Below, piece after piece: positions 4,344-40,484 of a stretch of 40,484 nucleotides of DNA (positions are counted from its first letter, which is position 1; each line of letters begins with the position of its first letter). The notes beneath the pieces were generated by a model. The model did not search any database. It worked only from the letters and a program-made list of their open reading frames with translations, and was not told the origin of the DNA. The stretch lies in assembly GCA_021824125.1 (NCBI GenBank), contig JAKALO010000009.1, positions 1 through 40,484 on the forward strand, written 5' to 3'. Both the position numbers and the translations under genes were made by a program. This DNA is from Deltaproteobacteria bacterium. Its GTDB lineage: Bacteria; Desulfobacterota; Deferrimicrobia; Deferrimicrobiales; Deferrimicrobiaceae.

Positions 4344-6999
4344 CGGAAACGGACGGTCCGCAGTCGGCGGGCGCGGTGATGTCGACGTACGCCGGGTGCA
4401 GTCCCTGCTCCGCGCCCGCGCGCACCTGCGGCCCACCGAACCCTGGTCGCTCCGCTCGCCGGAAGCGGAGGGCGGGTGCGGCGTCACCGGGTTCGCCTGC
4501 ACGATTCCCGTGGGCGGGAAACACATCTACGAGCCTTCCATCCAGATGCGCAACCGCGGCAACGGCAAGGGCGGCGGGATCGCCGCCTGCGGTCTGGTCC
4601 CGGAAGAACTGGGCGTTTCGCGCCGGATGCTGGACGAAGACTATATCCTCCAGGTCGCCCTGTTGGACCCGAATGCCCGGGGCGAGGTGGAAAAAGCCTT
4701 CATCGAGCCCTTCTTCGACATCGACCACGGGGGTCTGATCCCCACCGTGGATGATTTCCGCGACGTGCCGCTTCTCGAAGTTCGCCCCCCGGACGTGGCC
4801 CGCTACTTCGTCCGGCTCAAGCCTTCCGTCCTCGCGCGGTTTGCCGAGGAGAAGAAACTGGGCGCGGCCGGTCTTTCCGGGCGGGAAGTGGAGGACGAGT
4901 TCGTCTTCCAGAACTCGATCGCGCTGAACAACCGGTTCTACGCGTCGCTGGGCGACAAGCGGGCGTTCGTGATGTCCCACGCAAGGAATCTCATCATCCT
5001 AAAGATCGTCGGTTTCGCCGAGGCCGCCGTGCAGTATTACCGCATGCCCGACATGCGCGCGCACGTCTGGATCGCCCACCAGCGGTTTCCGACGAAGGGG
5101 CGCGTTTGGCATCCGGGCGGAGCGCATCCGTTCATCGGGATGAACGAGGCCCTGGTGCACAACGGCGACTTCGCCAATTACCACTCCGTGTGCGAGTACC
5201 TGGCCGGCCGCAACATATTCCCGCAATTCCTGACCGACACGGAGGTCTCGGTACTTCTGTTCGATCTGTGGAACCGGGTGTACCGGTATCCGGTGGAGTA
5301 CATCATCGAGGCACTGGCCCCGACGACGGAACTGGATTTCGACCGCCTCCCGTCGGAGAAACAGCGGATCTACCGCCAGATCCAGGCGGCGCACATCCAC
5401 GCCTCGCCCGACGGCCCCTGGTTCTTCATCATCGCCCGCAGCCTTGCCGAGACCGGGGAGTTCCAGTTGATGGGGATCACCGATACCGCCATGCTGCGGC
5501 CGCAGGTGTTCGCGCTGCAGGAGGGGGAGGTTTCCATCGGGCTGATCTGCTCGGAGAAGCAGGCCATCGACGCGACCCTGGCCAGCATGTCAAGCGAGGA
5601 CCCGCGGTTCACGCCCGTCGCCGACCTGTACTGGAACGCCCGCGGCGGAAGCTACACCGACGGGGGTGCCTTCCTGCTGACGGTCTCCCCGGAGAACGGC
5701 CACTATGGCATGCGCGTGACCAACAAGTTCGGCGCGGCGGTCTCGACCGTGTCCGACCAGGTCCGCTGCGACCTTTCCGTTCCGCCGGTTGCGCCCGCGC
5801 AGGCGGACGAAGACACGACGGCCATCGAACGATGCGTGCGCGATGGGGATTCCGAGGGGTTCTTTTCCCATCTTCTCGAACGGCTGCCCGCGATGGACTT
5901 CGACTCCTTCCGCTGGTTCGTCGACCGCTTTGCCGGACGGACGGCCGCGGAGGCCCCGGCGTTGGGCATCGAGGCCCTGACGCAATGCATGGATCGCCGC
6001 TATTCCACCGGGGAAAAGAAGCGCAGCTCCCTGCAGACGATCCTCCGTGGCGGCCTGGAGCGGATCTTCGAGCGGCAGCCGCTGTGCGACGACGAGCGGA
6101 CCGGCACCCACGTACGCGTCACCTGGGAAACCCGGGACCGCCTGCGCGGTCCGCGTCCCGGCGAGACGACGCTATTGATCGACGCCCGCGGTTTCTCGCC
6201 CGAAGGCGAGAACTGCGATGCGGTGCTGGCGGTCAAGGCCTTCCACCTCGGGTGGCGGAATCTGATCCATTACAACACGCGGGGGACGCGATTCCACGGC
6301 GTGGGGCTGGGTCCCGCCACCGCGGGACTGCGGATCGACTGCTACGACAACCCTGGCGACTATCTCGGCTCCGGCATCGACGGCCTGGAGATCTTCGTCC
6401 ACGGCAACGCCCAGGACCAGCTCTGCCAGATCAGCAAGCAGGGCAAACTGGTCGTCTACGGGGACGTGGGGCAAACGTTTCTCTACGGCGCCAAGGGCGG
6501 CGAGGTGTACGTGCTGGGCAACGCCGCCGGCCGGCCGATGATCAACGCCGTCGGATCGCCGCGCGTGGTGATCAACGGCACCGCCCTGGACTTCCTTGCC
6601 GAGTCGTTCATGGCCGGCGATCCTCTCAACGGCGGCGGCTTCGCCATCGTCAACGGCCTTACCTACGATCAATACGGAAAACTGCACCCGCTGGAACTCC
6701 CGTACCCCGGCGGGAATCTGCTTTCGCTGGCCTCCGGCGGGGCGATCTACATCCGCGATCCTCATCGCACGCTGGTCGAAGAGCAGCTCAACGGCGGGGT
6801 GTACAGGACCCTCTCCTCAGCCGACTGGAGGCTCATCCGGCCGTACCTGGAGGAGAACGAGCGTTTGTTCGGCATACGCATCGATCGCGATCTGCTGACC
6901 GTCGACGGAATCCTTAAATCCCCGCAGGCGGTATACCGCAAAGTCATGCCTCGCGGCGACGCCGCAGTCGAGGAAGAAATGGAGGGGCTAGGCGGATGA
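4333..6999 (+). CDS. Class II glutamine amidotransferase fused to GXGXG domain (GltB1+GltB3-like)
   Basis: In 888 residues this protein combines the two glutamate synthase parts missing from the FMN subunit. The N-terminal Ntn amidotransferase has GGCGVTGF with C49 as the expected catalytic N-terminal cysteine, implying removal of a 48-residue propeptide. It also has AHQRFPTKG near 253, HNGDFANY near 275 and a TDTEV segment, all typical of active glutaminases. The C-terminal part has the repeated GKLVVYGDVGQTF and GGEVYVLGNAAGRP pattern of the GXGXG beta-helix. The central FMN synthase domain of ordinary GltB is absent and is supplied in trans by the two preceding genes. An insertion and long linker (about residues 480-590) are not recognised. 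Glutamine hydrolysis with ammonia channelling is the likely role. The stop overlaps hdrC by 4 nt. Confidence 0.85.
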   Translation: MNRNGNGRSAVGGRGDVDVRRVQSLLRARAHLRPTEPWSLRSPEAEGGCGVTGFACTIPVGGKHIYEPSIQMRNRGNGKGGGIAACGLVPEELGVSRRMLDEDYILQVALLDPNARGEVEKAFIEPFFDIDHGGLIPTVDDFRDVPLLEVRPPDVARYFVRLKPSVLARFAEEKKLGAAGLSGREVEDEFVFQNSIALNNRFYASLGDKRAFVMSHARNLIILKIVGFAEAAVQYYRMPDMRAHVWIAHQRFPTKGRVWHPGGAHPFIGMNEALVHNGDFANYHSVCEYLAGRNIFPQFLTDTEVSVLLFDLWNRVYRYPVEYIIEALAPTTELDFDRLPSEKQRIYRQIQAAHIHASPDGPWFFIIARSLAETGEFQLMGITDTAMLRPQVFALQEGEVSIGLICSEKQAIDATLASMSSEDPRFTPVADLYWNARGGSYTDGGAFLLTVSPENGHYGMRVTNKFGAAVSTVSDQVRCDLSVPPVAPAQADEDTTAIERCVRDGDSEGFFSHLLERLPAMDFDSFRWFVDRFAGRTAAEAPALGIEALTQCMDRRYSTGEKKRSSLQTILRGGLERIFERQPLCDDERTGTHVRVTWETRDRLRGPRPGETTLLIDARGFSPEGENCDAVLAVKAFHLGWRNLIHYNTRGTRFHGVGLGPATAGLRIDCYDNPGDYLGSGIDGLEIFVHGNAQDQLCQISKQGKLVVYGDVGQTFLYGAKGGEVYVLGNAAGRPMINAVGSPRVVINGTALDFLAESFMAGDPLNGGGFAIVNGLTYDQYGKLHPLELPYPGGNLLSLASGGAIYIRDPHRTLVEEQLNGGVYRTLSSADWRLIRPYLEENERLFGIRIDRDLLTVDGILKSPQAVYRKVMPRGDAAVEEEMEGLGG

Positions 7000-36638: not shown

Positions 36639-36724
<86 letters not shown>

Positions 36725-36737
36725 TGATGAAACTCAC

Positions 36738-36769
36738 AGGAGCCTCGGAGAAATCCTTGGCTCCTTTTT
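36738..36769 (+). terminator. Factor-independent terminator after tRNA-Leu
   Basis: AGGAGCC (36738-36744) pairs with GGCTCCT (36759-36765), with an inner GGA-GAAA-TCC hairpin, followed by a run of five T. Confidence 0.8.
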
Positions 36770-36785
36770 CGTTTCATCTCAGGCC

Positions 36786-37073
36786 GAAGGGGGGCGAGAA
36801 CGGGCGAGGGACGCCGAGCGAGCAGCGAGGAAGAGCGCGACTTTAGGAGCGCGGAAGTCCCAAGCCCTGCCGCAATGGCCGATCGCGTGATCGCGGAGGC
36901 TCAGGCGGTCGAGTCCCCCCTCATGGCAACATCACCTGGAAACGCGAGCCCGCCGCCGAGCGAGCAGCGAGGATAAGCCCGACCTTGCGGAGGGCGAAAG
37001 GCGGGCGAGCCGGCCGAGGGGGCGCAGGCGTGATCGCCGGAGCCTGAACGGTCGAGTCCCCCCTTCGGCACCA
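36786..37073 (+). repeat. Tandem 143-bp GC-rich repeat ending in tRNA 3'-end copies
   Basis: Two units follow each other at about 36786-36928 and 36929-37073. Both contain GCCGAGCGAGCAGCGAGGA (36813-36831, 36955-36973), GCGTGATCGC (36885-36894, 37029-37038) and CGGTCGAGTCCCCCC (36906-36920, 37049-37063), at offsets of 142-144 bp. The second ends with 22 bp identical to the tRNA-Leu 3' end including CCA; the first has a decayed version. No coding potential is convincing. This accounts for most of the gene-free stretch 36725-37379. Confidence 0.75.
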
Positions 37074-37083
37074 TCGCAAATCC

Positions 37084-37121
37084 AAAAGGGAATTTGGCTT
37101 CGCGCCAAGTTCCCTTTTTTT
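37084..37121 (+). terminator. Factor-independent terminator after the tRNA-tail copy
   Basis: AAAAGGGAA (37084-37092) pairs with TTCCCTTTT (37110-37118), with inner TTGGC/GCCAA around a TTCGC loop, followed by a T run to 37121. It follows a tRNA 3'-end fragment at the distance typical of a real tRNA gene. Confidence 0.75.
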
Positions 37122-37289
37122 GTAATATCGGCCCGACTGGCTAAAAACTGGCTCGTGGGAGAGTGATTGAGAGGCACGAACAGTGATTTCAACATCCATC
37201 CCGGCAGGCATCTGGTCATAAGTGGATGCGATCAGACGATGAAACGATGACCGATTTTTTCACTGGAATAATTCCCTGAAAATTTTTCC

Positions 37290-37379: not shown

Positions 37380-37727
37380 TTGTCGAAGGCGAAGGTTACG
37401 TACATTGACCCGAAAAGCGTTCGGGAAGCCCGGGCGATTATGCCGGGAGACAGGATGGTCCGGGCGCTGGCGGAAACCTTTGGGGCATTGAGCGACCCCA
37501 CACGCGTCAGGATCATCTTCGCCCTGTCCGAACAGGAACTATGCGTCTTTGACCTCGCCCGGCTCCTGGGATTGACCGGATCGGCGGTGTCTCATCAACT
37601 CCGCCTTCTTCGGGGCCAGCGCCTCGTCCGGTATCGGAAGGAAGGGAAGGTCGCGTTCTATTCCCTGGACGATGACCATATCCGGAACCTCATGGAAGAG
37701 TGCGTGAAGCACGTCTCGGTGGATTGA
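37380..37727 (+). CDS. ArsR/SmtB-family metal-sensing repressor
   Basis: The 115-residue winged-helix protein starts at TTG 37380 with only a weak ribosome-binding site (GAAG). FGALSDPTRVRIIFAL and LGLTGSAVSHQLRLLR are the family's dimer and DNA-recognition segments. A likely alpha-5 metal site is present: D98 and H100, then H111 with the 11-residue spacing of CzrA/SmtB, and D115 in place of the fourth histidine. The alpha-3 motif ELCVFD keeps one of the two cysteines of CadC/ArsR. This favours Zn, Co or Ni over arsenite or Cd. It likely represses itself and the genes downstream; metal identity is inferred. Confidence 0.88.
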   Translation: MSKAKVTYIDPKSVREARAIMPGDRMVRALAETFGALSDPTRVRIIFALSEQELCVFDLARLLGLTGSAVSHQLRLLRGQRLVRYRKEGKVAFYSLDDDHIRNLMEECVKHVSVD

Positions 37728-37746
37728 TATTTTTTTCTGAAATAGA

Positions 37747-37763
37747 TGAAACAAGTGCTCATC
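37747..37763 (-). promoter_or_regulatory. ArsR-type operator 2
   Basis: ATGAAACAAGTGCTCAT (boundary uncertain by a base) is, on the reverse strand, nearly identical to operator 1. Flanking bases extend it to an AGATGA/TCATCT dyad. It lies between arsR and the ribosome-binding site (AAGGAGG) of the next gene, so expression of the porin cluster may be controlled separately from arsR itself. Confidence 0.55.
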
Positions 37764-37785
37764 TGTAGGCAATAAGGAGGGGCAA

Positions 37786-38139
37786 GTGGAAAGCGCACAG
37801 GTTGCATTGAACCAGCGGGACATAGAATCCGGGAACGGAGACATTGGACATAAGGAGCTACCCGAGGATCTCCCCATTGGCGAGTATCTCGACCGGATGG
37901 CTGAGGAGCTTCAGGAACGCGTCCGGCATCAGCAAGCCGTCCTGAAGAATATCCTTTGCGAGGGGGCGGGGAGGGAAAAGATCCCTTATTGCCCGCTTGT
38001 AAATTGTTCCCGGATCGAGAGGCTTCGTTTCGCCATTCAGGAGACCATCGGGGTTCTCGAGGAAACGAGGAATGCGTTCAAGTCGAAACGACTGGAGGTG
38101 ATGCGCAAGAAGCTCATCGAAATCCTCGCGGAATCCTGA
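37786..38139 (+). CDS. Unknown protein, predicted helical
   Basis: I do not recognise this 117-residue protein. It starts at GTG behind a near-perfect AAGGAGG. It is hydrophilic without signal peptide or membrane segment. Most of it looks helical and charged (YLDRMAEELQERVRHQQAV and RLRFAIQETIGVLEETRNAF), with a central segment IPYCPLVNCSRI and an earlier cysteine (ILCEGAG), giving three cysteines that might bind metal. It follows an ArsR operator and precedes a porin, so a role in metal handling is possible but unproven. Confidence 0.7.
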   Translation: MESAQVALNQRDIESGNGDIGHKELPEDLPIGEYLDRMAEELQERVRHQQAVLKNILCEGAGREKIPYCPLVNCSRIERLRFAIQETIGVLEETRNAFKSKRLEVMRKKLIEILAES

Positions 38140-38220
38140 AAGGCAAGGGGCGTATTACGGTACGGATGCGGGGGCAGTCTATGCCGACCGCTGGGCCGCA
38201 CGGTGAAGACGCAACTTCGG

Positions 38221-38238
38221 GGCGCACGAGAGTGCGCC
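38221..38238 (+). other. Perfect 7-bp hairpin with GAGA tetraloop in the porin leader
   Basis: GGCGCAC-GAGA-GTGCGCC lies in the 151-bp gap between the unknown protein and the porin. No T run follows, so it is not a terminator. A second small hairpin (TTCC-TTCG-GGAA-like) sits next to the porin ribosome-binding site. It may affect mRNA stability or translation. I see nothing else in 38140-38290. Confidence 0.4.
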
Positions 38239-38290
38239 ATGGCTTCACGAGTTGTTTCTTCATTTCCTTCGGAAGAAAGGAGCGTGCGGC

Positions 38291-39595
38291 ATGTCCCAGA
38301 AATCGCATTACACTGGTGTTTCAAGATCGGCTCTCTGGTTTCGATTCCTTCCCGTTTTCCTGATCGCTTGTCTTCTTGGCTTACCGGTTGCGTCCTCACC
38401 CGCAAGTGCCAAGGAGCCGTCGGAATCCTCTTTGAGTACGGAAGACAAAATTCTTGAGCTGGAGCGGTCACTCGAAGCCCTTAGCGGGAAGGTCGAGGAG
38501 CTGAAAAAGGTGCAAGCTCCTGAAATCCCCTCCTGGGTAAACCGGTTCACCCTCGGGGGATACGGGGAAATGCACGCCAACTTCGGCGAGGGGGATGCGG
38601 CCGACCAATTCGACATCCACCGCCTTGTTGCCTACGTCGGGTATACCTTCAATGACTGGATCCGGTTCCACTCAGAAACCGAGATCGAGCACGCCTTCGT
38701 CTCGAGCGAGAGCGATGGGGAGATCTCCATCGAGCAGGCATACTTGGACCTTCTCCTCTCGGACCCGGTGAACGTCCGGTTCGGGAGGATCCTCACTCCG
38801 ATCGGGATCCTCAACCGGAAGCACGAGCCGCCCACCTTCTACGGCGTCGAGCGTCCGTTTGTCGACCAGGTGATCATCCCGACGACATGGTCCTCCGACG
38901 GGATCGGCATCTTCGGGGGGATCGTCCCCTCCCTCAAGTACGAACTGTACGTGGTGAGCGGGCTGGACGGGAGTGCCTTCAACGCAACGAACGGAATCCG
39001 GGGCGGACGGATCAAGGAACGGCCGAGCCTCCATGAGCCCGCAGTGACCGGGCGGCTGGACTTCTTCCCGTTTGTCGCATGGCCTTCCGGTTACGGGTCG
39101 TTCCTTAGGCTTGGCGCCTCGGCCTACTACGGCGGACTGGACAACGGGAACCGGGGGCAGAACCCGGGAATCGACGCCGACCTGCGAGTCCTGTCGGCCG
39201 ACTTCGAGTACAGCGTGGGCCAGATCGACTTCCGGGGTGTGTTCGCCCACGAAAACATCGACGGGGCGACACGGATCGGCAATAACGTGGCCGAGGAGAT
39301 CGTCGGCTGGTACCTGGAGGGGGCCTGGCGTTTCTTTCCGGACTCCTGGAAGAAGGGAAAGCTCGCCCGGTCGGACGCGGCGGTCTTCGTCCGCTACGAG
39401 GACTTTGACACGCAATACAGGATGCCCGCGGGGGTGGCGGAAAACCCGGCGGGGGACCGGACCGCCTGGACGCTCGGCGCAAGCTTCTACCTGACTCCAT
39501 CGCTTGTTGCGAAGGCCGACTACCAGGTCCGGGACGATGCCACGGGACGGGACCTTCCGGATCTGGTGAACCTCGGGATCGGCTGGCAATTCTAA
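38291..39595 (+). CDS. Outer-membrane porin, phosphate-selective porin (OprO/OprP)-like
   Basis: The 434-residue protein starts at ATG 38291 with AAAGGAG upstream. A signal peptide with hydrophobic core FLPVFLIACLLGLPV ends near ASA-KE. A short coiled coil (DKILELERSLEALSGKVEEL) precedes a beta-barrel rich in alternating hydrophobic strands, and the chain ends with aromatic F, the usual outer-membrane signal. HRLVAYVGYTFNDWIRFHSE and LLLSDPVNVRFGRILTPIG resemble the OprP/porin O family. The solute is unknown. It follows metal-sensor regulation, so metal or anion uptake is possible. Confidence 0.85.
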   Translation: MSQKSHYTGVSRSALWFRFLPVFLIACLLGLPVASSPASAKEPSESSLSTEDKILELERSLEALSGKVEELKKVQAPEIPSWVNRFTLGGYGEMHANFGEGDAADQFDIHRLVAYVGYTFNDWIRFHSETEIEHAFVSSESDGEISIEQAYLDLLLSDPVNVRFGRILTPIGILNRKHEPPTFYGVERPFVDQVIIPTTWSSDGIGIFGGIVPSLKYELYVVSGLDGSAFNATNGIRGGRIKERPSLHEPAVTGRLDFFPFVAWPSGYGSFLRLGASAYYGGLDNGNRGQNPGIDADLRVLSADFEYSVGQIDFRGVFAHENIDGATRIGNNVAEEIVGWYLEGAWRFFPDSWKKGKLARSDAAVFVRYEDFDTQYRMPAGVAENPAGDRTAWTLGASFYLTPSLVAKADYQVRDDATGRDLPDLVNLGIGWQF

Positions 39596-39603
39596 AGTAC
39601 CCA

Positions 39604-39639
39604 GCCTGGGGCGAGGCGCGTTCGGGCGCCCCCCCAGGC
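39604..39639 (+). other. Strong intercistronic hairpin between porin and cytochrome genes
   Basis: GCCTGGGG (39604-39611) pairs with CCCCAGGC (39632-39639), and an inner GGCGC/GCGCC stem surrounds a GTTCGG loop. No T run follows and a good ribosome-binding site (GGGAAGGGAG) comes next, so it more likely protects or sets relative mRNA levels than terminates. Confidence 0.55.
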
Positions 39640-39657
39640 CGGGAAGGGAGATATACG

Positions 39658-40017
39658 ATGAATCCATGGAGCGGGAATCGTGTTACCGGATGGATCCTTG
39701 CTTTCGCTCTCGCTTTTTTGGCTGGGATCGCAGGGTGTGCGGTGGGGAGAACGTCTGTCCCCACCGCGGAGGATCTTTCCGTTGCGGGAGTGCTTTCGGG
39801 GAAAACGAACGTTGAAGCCGTCCGGAGGGGACGCGTCATCTTCGTGACGGAGTGCGGGGCCTGCCACAAACTGTACCTGCCGGGGGAGTATTCCCCGCAG
39901 GAGTGGCGGCCGATCGTGAAGCGGATGGCGGACAGGGCTTCCCTGGGGACGGAACAAGCCCTTGATCTCGATATGTATCTGACCGCAGCAAGCCTGGCTG
40001 CCAGGCAAATGAGATGA
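39658..40017 (+). CDS. Monohaem lipoprotein cytochrome c
   Basis: The 119-residue protein has a lipoprotein signal peptide with lipobox LAGIAGC (C27) and a single haem motif CGACH (C66, C69, H70). The following KLYLPGEYSPQEWRPIVKRM is typical of small class I-like cytochromes, with the methionine a candidate distal ligand. It should be anchored in the periplasm. It lies directly downstream of the porin and just before a DUF2325 gene, so it is part of the same cluster. A redox role in the uptake or conversion of whatever the porin admits is speculation. Confidence 0.87.
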   Translation: MNPWSGNRVTGWILAFALAFLAGIAGCAVGRTSVPTAEDLSVAGVLSGKTNVEAVRRGRVIFVTECGACHKLYLPGEYSPQEWRPIVKRMADRASLGTEQALDLDMYLTAASLAARQMR

Positions 40018-40020
40018 CCC

Positions 40021-40317
40021 ATGTGCGTCGGATTGATCGGAGGGATGGACAGGCTCGGTAAGCACTACGCGGCAGAAGCGAAACAACGGGGGATCCTGCT
40101 TAAGGTCTTCAACGTGCCGGAAGCCTCTATGGCCGCAAAGATCCGGGGCGTGGACGCTCTTGTGATCTTCACAAACAAGGTGTCACACCGGGCAAGGCGG
40201 GAGGCCGTTCACGTTGCCCGGTCGCGAAAGATCCCGGTCTTTCTCCACCATTCCTGTGGAGTGTGCACGTTTCGCAGATGTCTCGATTGCCTCAAGATCC
40301 GAGTCGAGAAGGGATAA
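40021..40317 (+). CDS. DUF2325 family protein
   Basis: The 98-residue protein matches DUF2325: start MCVGLIGGMDRLGKHY, core ALVIFTNKVSHRARREA and end PVFLHHSCGVCTFRRC. It has a Rossmann-like half-fold look without an enzymatic motif that I can name. The C-terminal HHSCGVC, then CLDC, gives four clustered cysteines with two histidines, suggesting metal binding. Small DUF2325 proteins are often near metal-transport or iron-related genes. It is the last gene of the cluster, 3 nt after the cytochrome. Confidence 0.85.
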   Translation: MCVGLIGGMDRLGKHYAAEAKQRGILLKVFNVPEASMAAKIRGVDALVIFTNKVSHRARREAVHVARSRKIPVFLHHSCGVCTFRRCLDCLKIRVEKG

Positions 40318-40344: not shown

Positions 40345-40387
<43 letters not shown>

Positions 40388-40415
40388 CAACCAATCTTTA
40401 CCCCACAGCGATTGC

Positions 40416-40484
40416 CGTCCAAGGGGACTCGAACCGGCGAGGAGCGCCGACCGGGTAGGGAGGAAAAGCCCGACCTTGCGGAGG
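40416..40484 (+). repeat. Start of a third GC-rich repeat module (runs off the window)
   Basis: AAGCCCGACCTTGCGGAGG at 40466-40484 is identical to 36975-36993 in the second tandem unit, and the preceding CGGCGAGGAGCGCCGA resembles the unit start. By analogy another tRNA 3'-end copy should lie just beyond the window. Confidence 0.55.

Follow-up and report, generated by a model that had tools for sequence, protein, structure and literature searches.

The window analysed here is a stretch of 40,484 nucleotides from a deltaproteobacterial genome of the family Deferrimicrobiaceae. Toward its right-hand end lies a tRNA-Leu(GAG) gene that is followed by two tandem non-coding units and, beyond a 3.6-kb insert, by the beginning of a third. 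The parts of these units are best named from the plan shared by every complete tRNA-linked copy that we found: a tRNA with its end X, a spacer, X', a core, and X again. X is the host tRNA's own end, from the T-loop to the CCA, and X' is an inverted copy of that end. The core comprises about 105 conserved nucleotides, and the whole element about 140-190 bp. The features of the locus are as follows.

36639-36724, + strand: host tRNA-Leu(GAG) gene (ARAGORN; Rfam tRNA, 46.9 bits)
36703-36724, + strand: X of the host tRNA-Leu(GAG), T-loop to CCA
36725-36782, + strand: spacer of unit 1, a palindrome with a hairpin and T-run, terminator-like (sequence, fold)
36783-36801, + strand: X' of unit 1, the inverted tRNA end, GCCGAAGGGGGG followed by a decayed T-arm complement (inverted repeat)
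36802-36908, + strand: core of unit 1, a branched conserved fold (covariance model match 36791-36918, 121.6 bits)
36909-36931, + strand: X of unit 1, a decayed tRNA-Leu end that reads TCGAGTCCCCCCTCATGGCAACA (sequence, direct repeat)
36932-37051, + strand: left part (its X' decayed away) and core of unit 2 (covariance model match 36932-37061, 100.6 bits)
37052-37073, + strand: X of unit 2, a perfect 22-bp copy of the tRNA-Leu end (match spans 37050-37073)
37074-37150, + strand: native downstream block of tRNA-Leu(GAG), a terminator and GGCCCGACTGGCT (comparison with empty copies in other genomes)
40345-40387, + strand: 43-bp exact copy of the tRNA-Leu 3' half, an island-type duplication (direct repeat)
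40412-40484, + strand: third unit, X' (AAGGGGACTCGAACC, 40421-40435) and the start of the core (direct and inverted repeats; cut by the contig end)

Direct repeats set the units apart by start-to-start distances of 142 bp (36799/36941) and 143 bp (36885/37028). The start of the third unit recurs as the repeat 40432-40477, and base 40484 is the end of contig C26. The initial annotation of this DNA, which had described two tandem units of about 143 bp and a cut third, thus placed all of them correctly. Its statement that the units finish in the T-arm and acceptor end of tRNA-Leu is exact for unit 2; in unit 1 this end has decayed. The terminator that it noted after the second copy is present, as a hairpin with arms at 37084-37098 and 37104-37118 followed by a T-run. 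Two features had been overlooked: the T-run hairpin between the tRNA and unit 1, and the inverted tRNA end to the left of unit 1, in which 36783-36794 is an exact 12-nt complement of the tRNA-Leu tail. A complement search against the tRNA end revealed no X' longer than 6 nt in unit 2. Ahead of the third unit, 40345-40387 reproduces 36682-36724 with 100% identity. Between the tRNA-Leu gene and its 43-bp copy lies the 3.6-kb insert (window 37380-40317), which encodes an ArsR-family regulator, an unnamed protein and a porin O/P and also gives matches to DUF2325 and, weakly, to a dihaem cytochrome c; an integrase was not found in it.

The units are not confined to this locus. In the same genome, BLAST matches to them have E-values from 1e-46 to 1e-10, far beyond chance, and BLAST together with a covariance model built from nine copies (R1) yielded 14 copies at E<=1e-4. 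Every copy clear of contig ends lies 3' of a tRNA gene, and those that are cut terminate in the tail of a tRNA or tmRNA. With R1, the element was detected in 20 of the 24 genomes of the host's taxonomic family, with up to 21 matches per genome; the same model had no match in 35 genomes from other families. A broader model from 27 diverse copies (R2), run over 395 genomes of the phylum, located the element in at least 31 of them, belonging to at least 11 families. These counts are lower bounds, given that eight candidates per genome were scored. The host genes encode Leu, Ser, Arg, Ala, Glu, Gln, Lys, Asn, Pro, Thr, Gly and SeC tRNAs, as well as tmRNA. Among the best 16 loci beyond the host's own family, 13 are 3' of a tRNA predicted by ARAGORN; the others follow a tRNA 3' end recognized by eye (L332, L334) or a tmRNA-like end (L338). 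The T-arm-like ends contained in the models could bias them toward tRNA tails, but in several BLAST matches in the host genome the core was all that aligned, and copies remote from tRNAs are picked up by the same model as well. The initial annotation had asked whether copies cluster after tRNA genes; they do so in the genome, the taxonomic family and the phylum, and the outcome that it had named as refuting its reading (no other copies, or none linked to a tRNA) did not occur for the main form of the element.

The carriers that bear names are deltaproteobacterial metagenome-assembled genomes (MAGs), e.g. WY2.bin79 and GWA2_55_10. A pattern scan of genome contigs returned mostly chance matches in GC-rich genomes, and the matches upheld by the model came exclusively from deltaproteobacterial MAGs (one is labelled Actinomycetota and is identical to G019). 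A phage or plasmid vehicle was rejected, as a search of 50,697 phage and 72,556 plasmid records gave no match. One pattern match in a viral contig (L196) was rejected as a chance match in coding-like DNA, and Rfam sX4 matches near tRNA-Ser loci cover mainly the tRNA itself. Within genera, the presence of the element is patchy; the Ser(CGA) and Leu(GAG) loci bear copies in many genera.

The ends of the element are specific to the host gene. X agrees with its own tRNA at a mean of 0.89, without a single mismatch over 20 nt in 40 of 68 copies; against foreign tRNAs the agreement reaches 0.60, with no perfect match among the 68. The T-arm part of X' likewise scores 0.90 with its own tRNA versus 0.74 with foreign ones. 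Both junctions fall in the T-loop (...TTCGAAC-core-G(T)TCGA...), the spacer measures 19-68 nt within the family, and copies are always on the strand of the tRNA. In most copies from the host's genus, X' pairs with the acceptor tip and the T-arm, with 4-6 mismatched bases between (e.g. CGGAG-ATTA-TGGGATTCG); at Ser(CGA) in genus g2 it is fully complementary, without the mismatched gap. We considered whether an encoded CCA could distinguish an origin at the RNA level from one at the DNA level, and found this test uninformative because all 70 host tRNA genes encode the CCA. At one locus (L295, G009:C91), X' occurs without a core (GGGGATTCGAACCGGCTGCCC...) after each of two tRNA-Ser(GCT) genes (4510-4602 and 4993-5085); these are perhaps remnants of lost units, and the neighbouring tRNA-Ser pair is itself duplicated.

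The fold of the element is strongly conserved. RNAalifold on nine copies gave a closing stem of X' and X around a branched core, in which 15 of 35 pairs show a change of both partners in one copy or more. Over 46 distinct sequences, 93.4% of cells pair and both partners vary in 29 of the 35 pairs. The score for covariation is 0.410, compared with 0.121 +- 0.008 after shuffling and at most 0.073 with the partner slid; it leans upward because the alignment was fitted to the model, and the gap is nonetheless very large. The core also holds conserved unpaired bases. These repeats therefore form a phylum-wide family of structured elements with host-specific tRNA ends, and the finding is much larger than first described. 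The initial description of a small non-coding element carrying a tRNA tail was right. Its idea of a tRNA-derived repeat applies to the ends, both of which copy the host tRNA (the left one inverted), and not to the core.

Several observations bear on whether the element moves. One genome (G198) contains eight copies with cores that are 81-97% identical, each equipped with the X and X' of its own host. Seven of them directly follow genes for six tRNA species (one each for Glu, Arg and Ser, two loci each for Gln and Pro), and the eighth is in tandem. In another (G008), the cores at Leu(gag), Leu(cag) and Arg(tcg) are 91-93% identical. Further, filled and empty sites can be compared. At empty tRNA-Leu(GAG) 3' ends (G004, G006, G012, G020), a terminator block directly follows X, and the same block follows the last X at filled ends (G004, G012, the window). 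Therefore, the insert consists of spacer, X', core and X, placed at the CCA end. Some cores group by genome and others by tRNA, so that the trees fit neither vertical descent alone nor recent spread alone. A copy after tRNA-Arg(TCT) in G216 (L357) is a chimera with an X' of the Arg type and an X of the Pro type; exchange between copies must thus occur as well. In the same genome, two tRNA-Pro(GGG) 3' ends 49 kb apart (L343/L328, C1:1863671 and 1912363) each carry an element; the two are almost the same along some 240 bp, as though the duplicated tRNA end plus element had flanked a large island.

Two minor forms occur away from tRNAs. About a dozen type B copies (L199-L202, L206-L214; G014, G019, G022) have the ends CGGACGCAGGGCGCAG...CGTATGAGCCCGGAGTCCG. 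This form is derived from an Arg(TCG)-like version, to which its core is closest, and has spread within a single genus (g9). In type C copies (L215, L217, L219, L271, L273-L276), the core sits inside GGAGCGAGAACCC...GGGTTCGAGCTCC ends.

We propose that the units are a small, non-coding, non-autonomous mobile element, structured and targeting the 3' ends of tRNA and tmRNA genes, and give this reading a probability of roughly 0.6. A new copy would land at the CCA end of the tRNA, ahead of the sequence that natively follows it, and duplication of this end would leave the tRNA intact. The element could be moved, and its host-specific ends written, by a recombinase acting in trans or by a template switch at the palindrome of the T-arm. 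Tandem units would arise from further insertion or when X copies undergo unequal exchange, and copies would also travel with genomic islands that integrate at these tRNAs. Some units may also be cut from read-through transcripts as small RNAs, by analogy with the rtT repeats of E. coli. We infer that insertion at tRNA ends is the main reason for the spread of the element. We know of no simple mechanism by which one end of an insert would become an inverted copy of its target, and this counts against mobility. Copies in many genera at Ser(CGA) and Leu(GAG) also fit long retention by selection, and the perfect X of copies with diverged cores suggests constraint or gene conversion rather than recent insertion only. 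More tentatively, and at somewhat less than even odds, the element could represent a new mobile class in which every insertion copies both ends afresh from the target tRNA gene, one of them inverted; this class would span 11 or more families within a single phylum and include the rtT repeats of E. coli as a distant or convergent member.

Another possibility is that the units are functional RNAs under selection, co-transcribed with the tRNA and freed as small RNAs by processing enzymes that treat X as a tRNA end, with mobility being secondary. The very strong covariation, the conserved unpaired core bases, the constant orientation and the occurrence at Ser(CGA) in many genera are all consistent with this idea, as is the X'-core-X plan held in common with the E. 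coli rtT repeats, which have an annotated ncRNA (rttR). Read-through from the tRNA is also possible at the 36 of 61 loci whose spacers lack a T-run. However, the remaining 25 spacers have one, and the longer spacers at Leu(GAG), of about 60 nt, place terminator-like hairpins between tRNA and unit. The patchy presence inside genera and the type B and C copies away from tRNAs likewise speak against selection as the main cause, and a conserved structure by itself would fit equally well a DNA hairpin needed for movement. We therefore regard a primarily RNA-level role as rather unlikely. A related notion, which we consider improbable, is a switch in tRNA maturation: X' would either trap the tRNA end by pairing with it or leave it free by pairing with the downstream X, the choice being made by the core. 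P1 is a closing stem, as in riboswitches, and when tRNA and unit were folded together, X' was predicted on the tRNA's own end at 54 of 61 loci and on the downstream X at 3, in a calculation that leaves out tRNA tertiary structure and folding during transcription. Such pairing with the tRNA end would disturb the tRNA if both were transcribed together. In this type of calculation, however, pairing goes almost trivially to the nearest complement, and at some loci a terminator lies ahead of the unit.

The initial annotation had offered the debris of repeated integrations as an explanation. In that case, the units would be attachment-site remnants left at tRNA-Leu(GAG), and there are loci that look the part: the third unit follows the 43-bp tRNA copy that closes the 3.6-kb insert, four 45-bp 3'-half copies and a truncated one accompany the intact tRNA-Leu(GAG) within 13 kb in G004, some of them with a unit, and in G216 a unit marks each of the two distant tRNA-Pro ends. 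Most copies, however (at Ser, Ala, Arg, Glu, Thr and other tRNAs), adjoin an intact tRNA with no island between. X starts in the T-loop, whereas island duplications start in the anticodon or variable arm, and remnants would not show covariation across a phylum. Debris is thus an apt description of the 43-bp copy at 40345-40387 and the insert before it only; for the unit itself, a conserved structured element, we deem it very improbable.

The nearest parallel to the proposed mobile element is the rtT repeat of the E. coli tyrT locus (RF00391, rttR). In E. coli, rtT RNA arises by processing and has a link to the stringent response. As in the window, its tandem units directly follow a tRNA gene, and each ends in a copy of the host tRNA, in this case the last 19 bp of tRNA-Tyr including the CCA. 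Further, an exact 10-nt inverted tRNA end (GGGGAAGGAT), a match reached in 5 of 5000 shuffles, closes a branched fold, which is the X'-core-X plan described above. The E. coli unit, in contrast, is longer (178 bp), has a different core sequence and is known at one tRNA species, whereas our element occurs at many. tRNA-Tyr is absent among the hosts of 70 nonredundant copies from the family of the window's genome. The Rfam RtT model, which gave four matches of 133-138 bits in an E. coli tyrT control, had no match in the window (E<=5) or in 11 other carriers (E<=0.5), and we therefore do not claim RtT membership. In the reverse direction, R2 matches the E. coli repeats at an E-value of about 1 only; these weak matches fall exactly on all three repeats.

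Other systems share fewer traits. REP/REPIN sequences, moved by RAYT (Y1) transposases, are likewise short, palindromic, dispersed, non-coding and non-autonomous; unlike our element, they have neither tRNA anchoring nor target-derived ends. A Y1/RAYT transposase was rejected as the mover, its presence not tracking the element: it is absent from the carriers G001, G006, G011, G013, G014, G016, G019 and G022 (genus g2 included) and single-copy elsewhere. MITEs were also rejected, as the inverted-repeat ends of the main form (type A) are not common to all copies and vary with the host tRNA, and the duplicated target is a tRNA end of about 22 bp. A tRNA-derived SINE does not fit either, with no tRNA detected in the core by ARAGORN or Rfam and the 3' end alone shared. 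Islands that target tRNAs also duplicate the tRNA 3' end, leave the tRNA whole and use the same loci (the 43-45-bp copies); they differ in having genes and an integrase, and in lacking an inverted tRNA end and a conserved fold, whereas our unit is only about 150 bp. A tRNA 3' end at the far end of a gene-carrying insert was seen at 40345-40387 and at the G004 and G216 loci, and is not a feature of the units at most tRNAs. In G004 (L289, C58:4800-19500), the tRNA copies separate cassette-like segments, the first of which (834 bp) holds a Gp49-like gene (PF05973) and an HTH_3 gene, resembling a toxin-antitoxin pair; no integrase was seen by eye between these tRNA copies.

A literature search on rtT/tyrT, tRNA-tail repeats and SINE-like bacterial repeats produced nothing on point in the library covered. 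Multicopy sequences of Geobacter and Pelobacter (PMC2996986, PMC3543383) are, in the portions of these reports consulted, palindromic, intergenic and deltaproteobacterial, as is our element; those portions state no link to tRNAs, in which they differ from it. Some of these sequences may, on that partial account, be the same thing.

The E. coli tyrT repeats were long an oddity of a single locus. We now see the same plan throughout a phylum, beside tmRNA and the genes of over a dozen tRNA species; its covariation can be measured, filled sites can be set against empty ones, and there are signs that it spread recently. The role of rtT-type repeats has thereby become testable, as has the question of how an element comes to bear host-specific copies of its target at both ends. 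The results also bear on the annotation of tRNA genes and on the pile-up of islands at these tRNAs.

In several genomes (L011, L204, L205, L216, L223, L229, L247), a second insert (CTCCCGGACnnnATACGCTCCCTGGGGTACCCC...) occupies about the same spot within the core's last hairpin, as though this hairpin were favoured by a further small mobile element.
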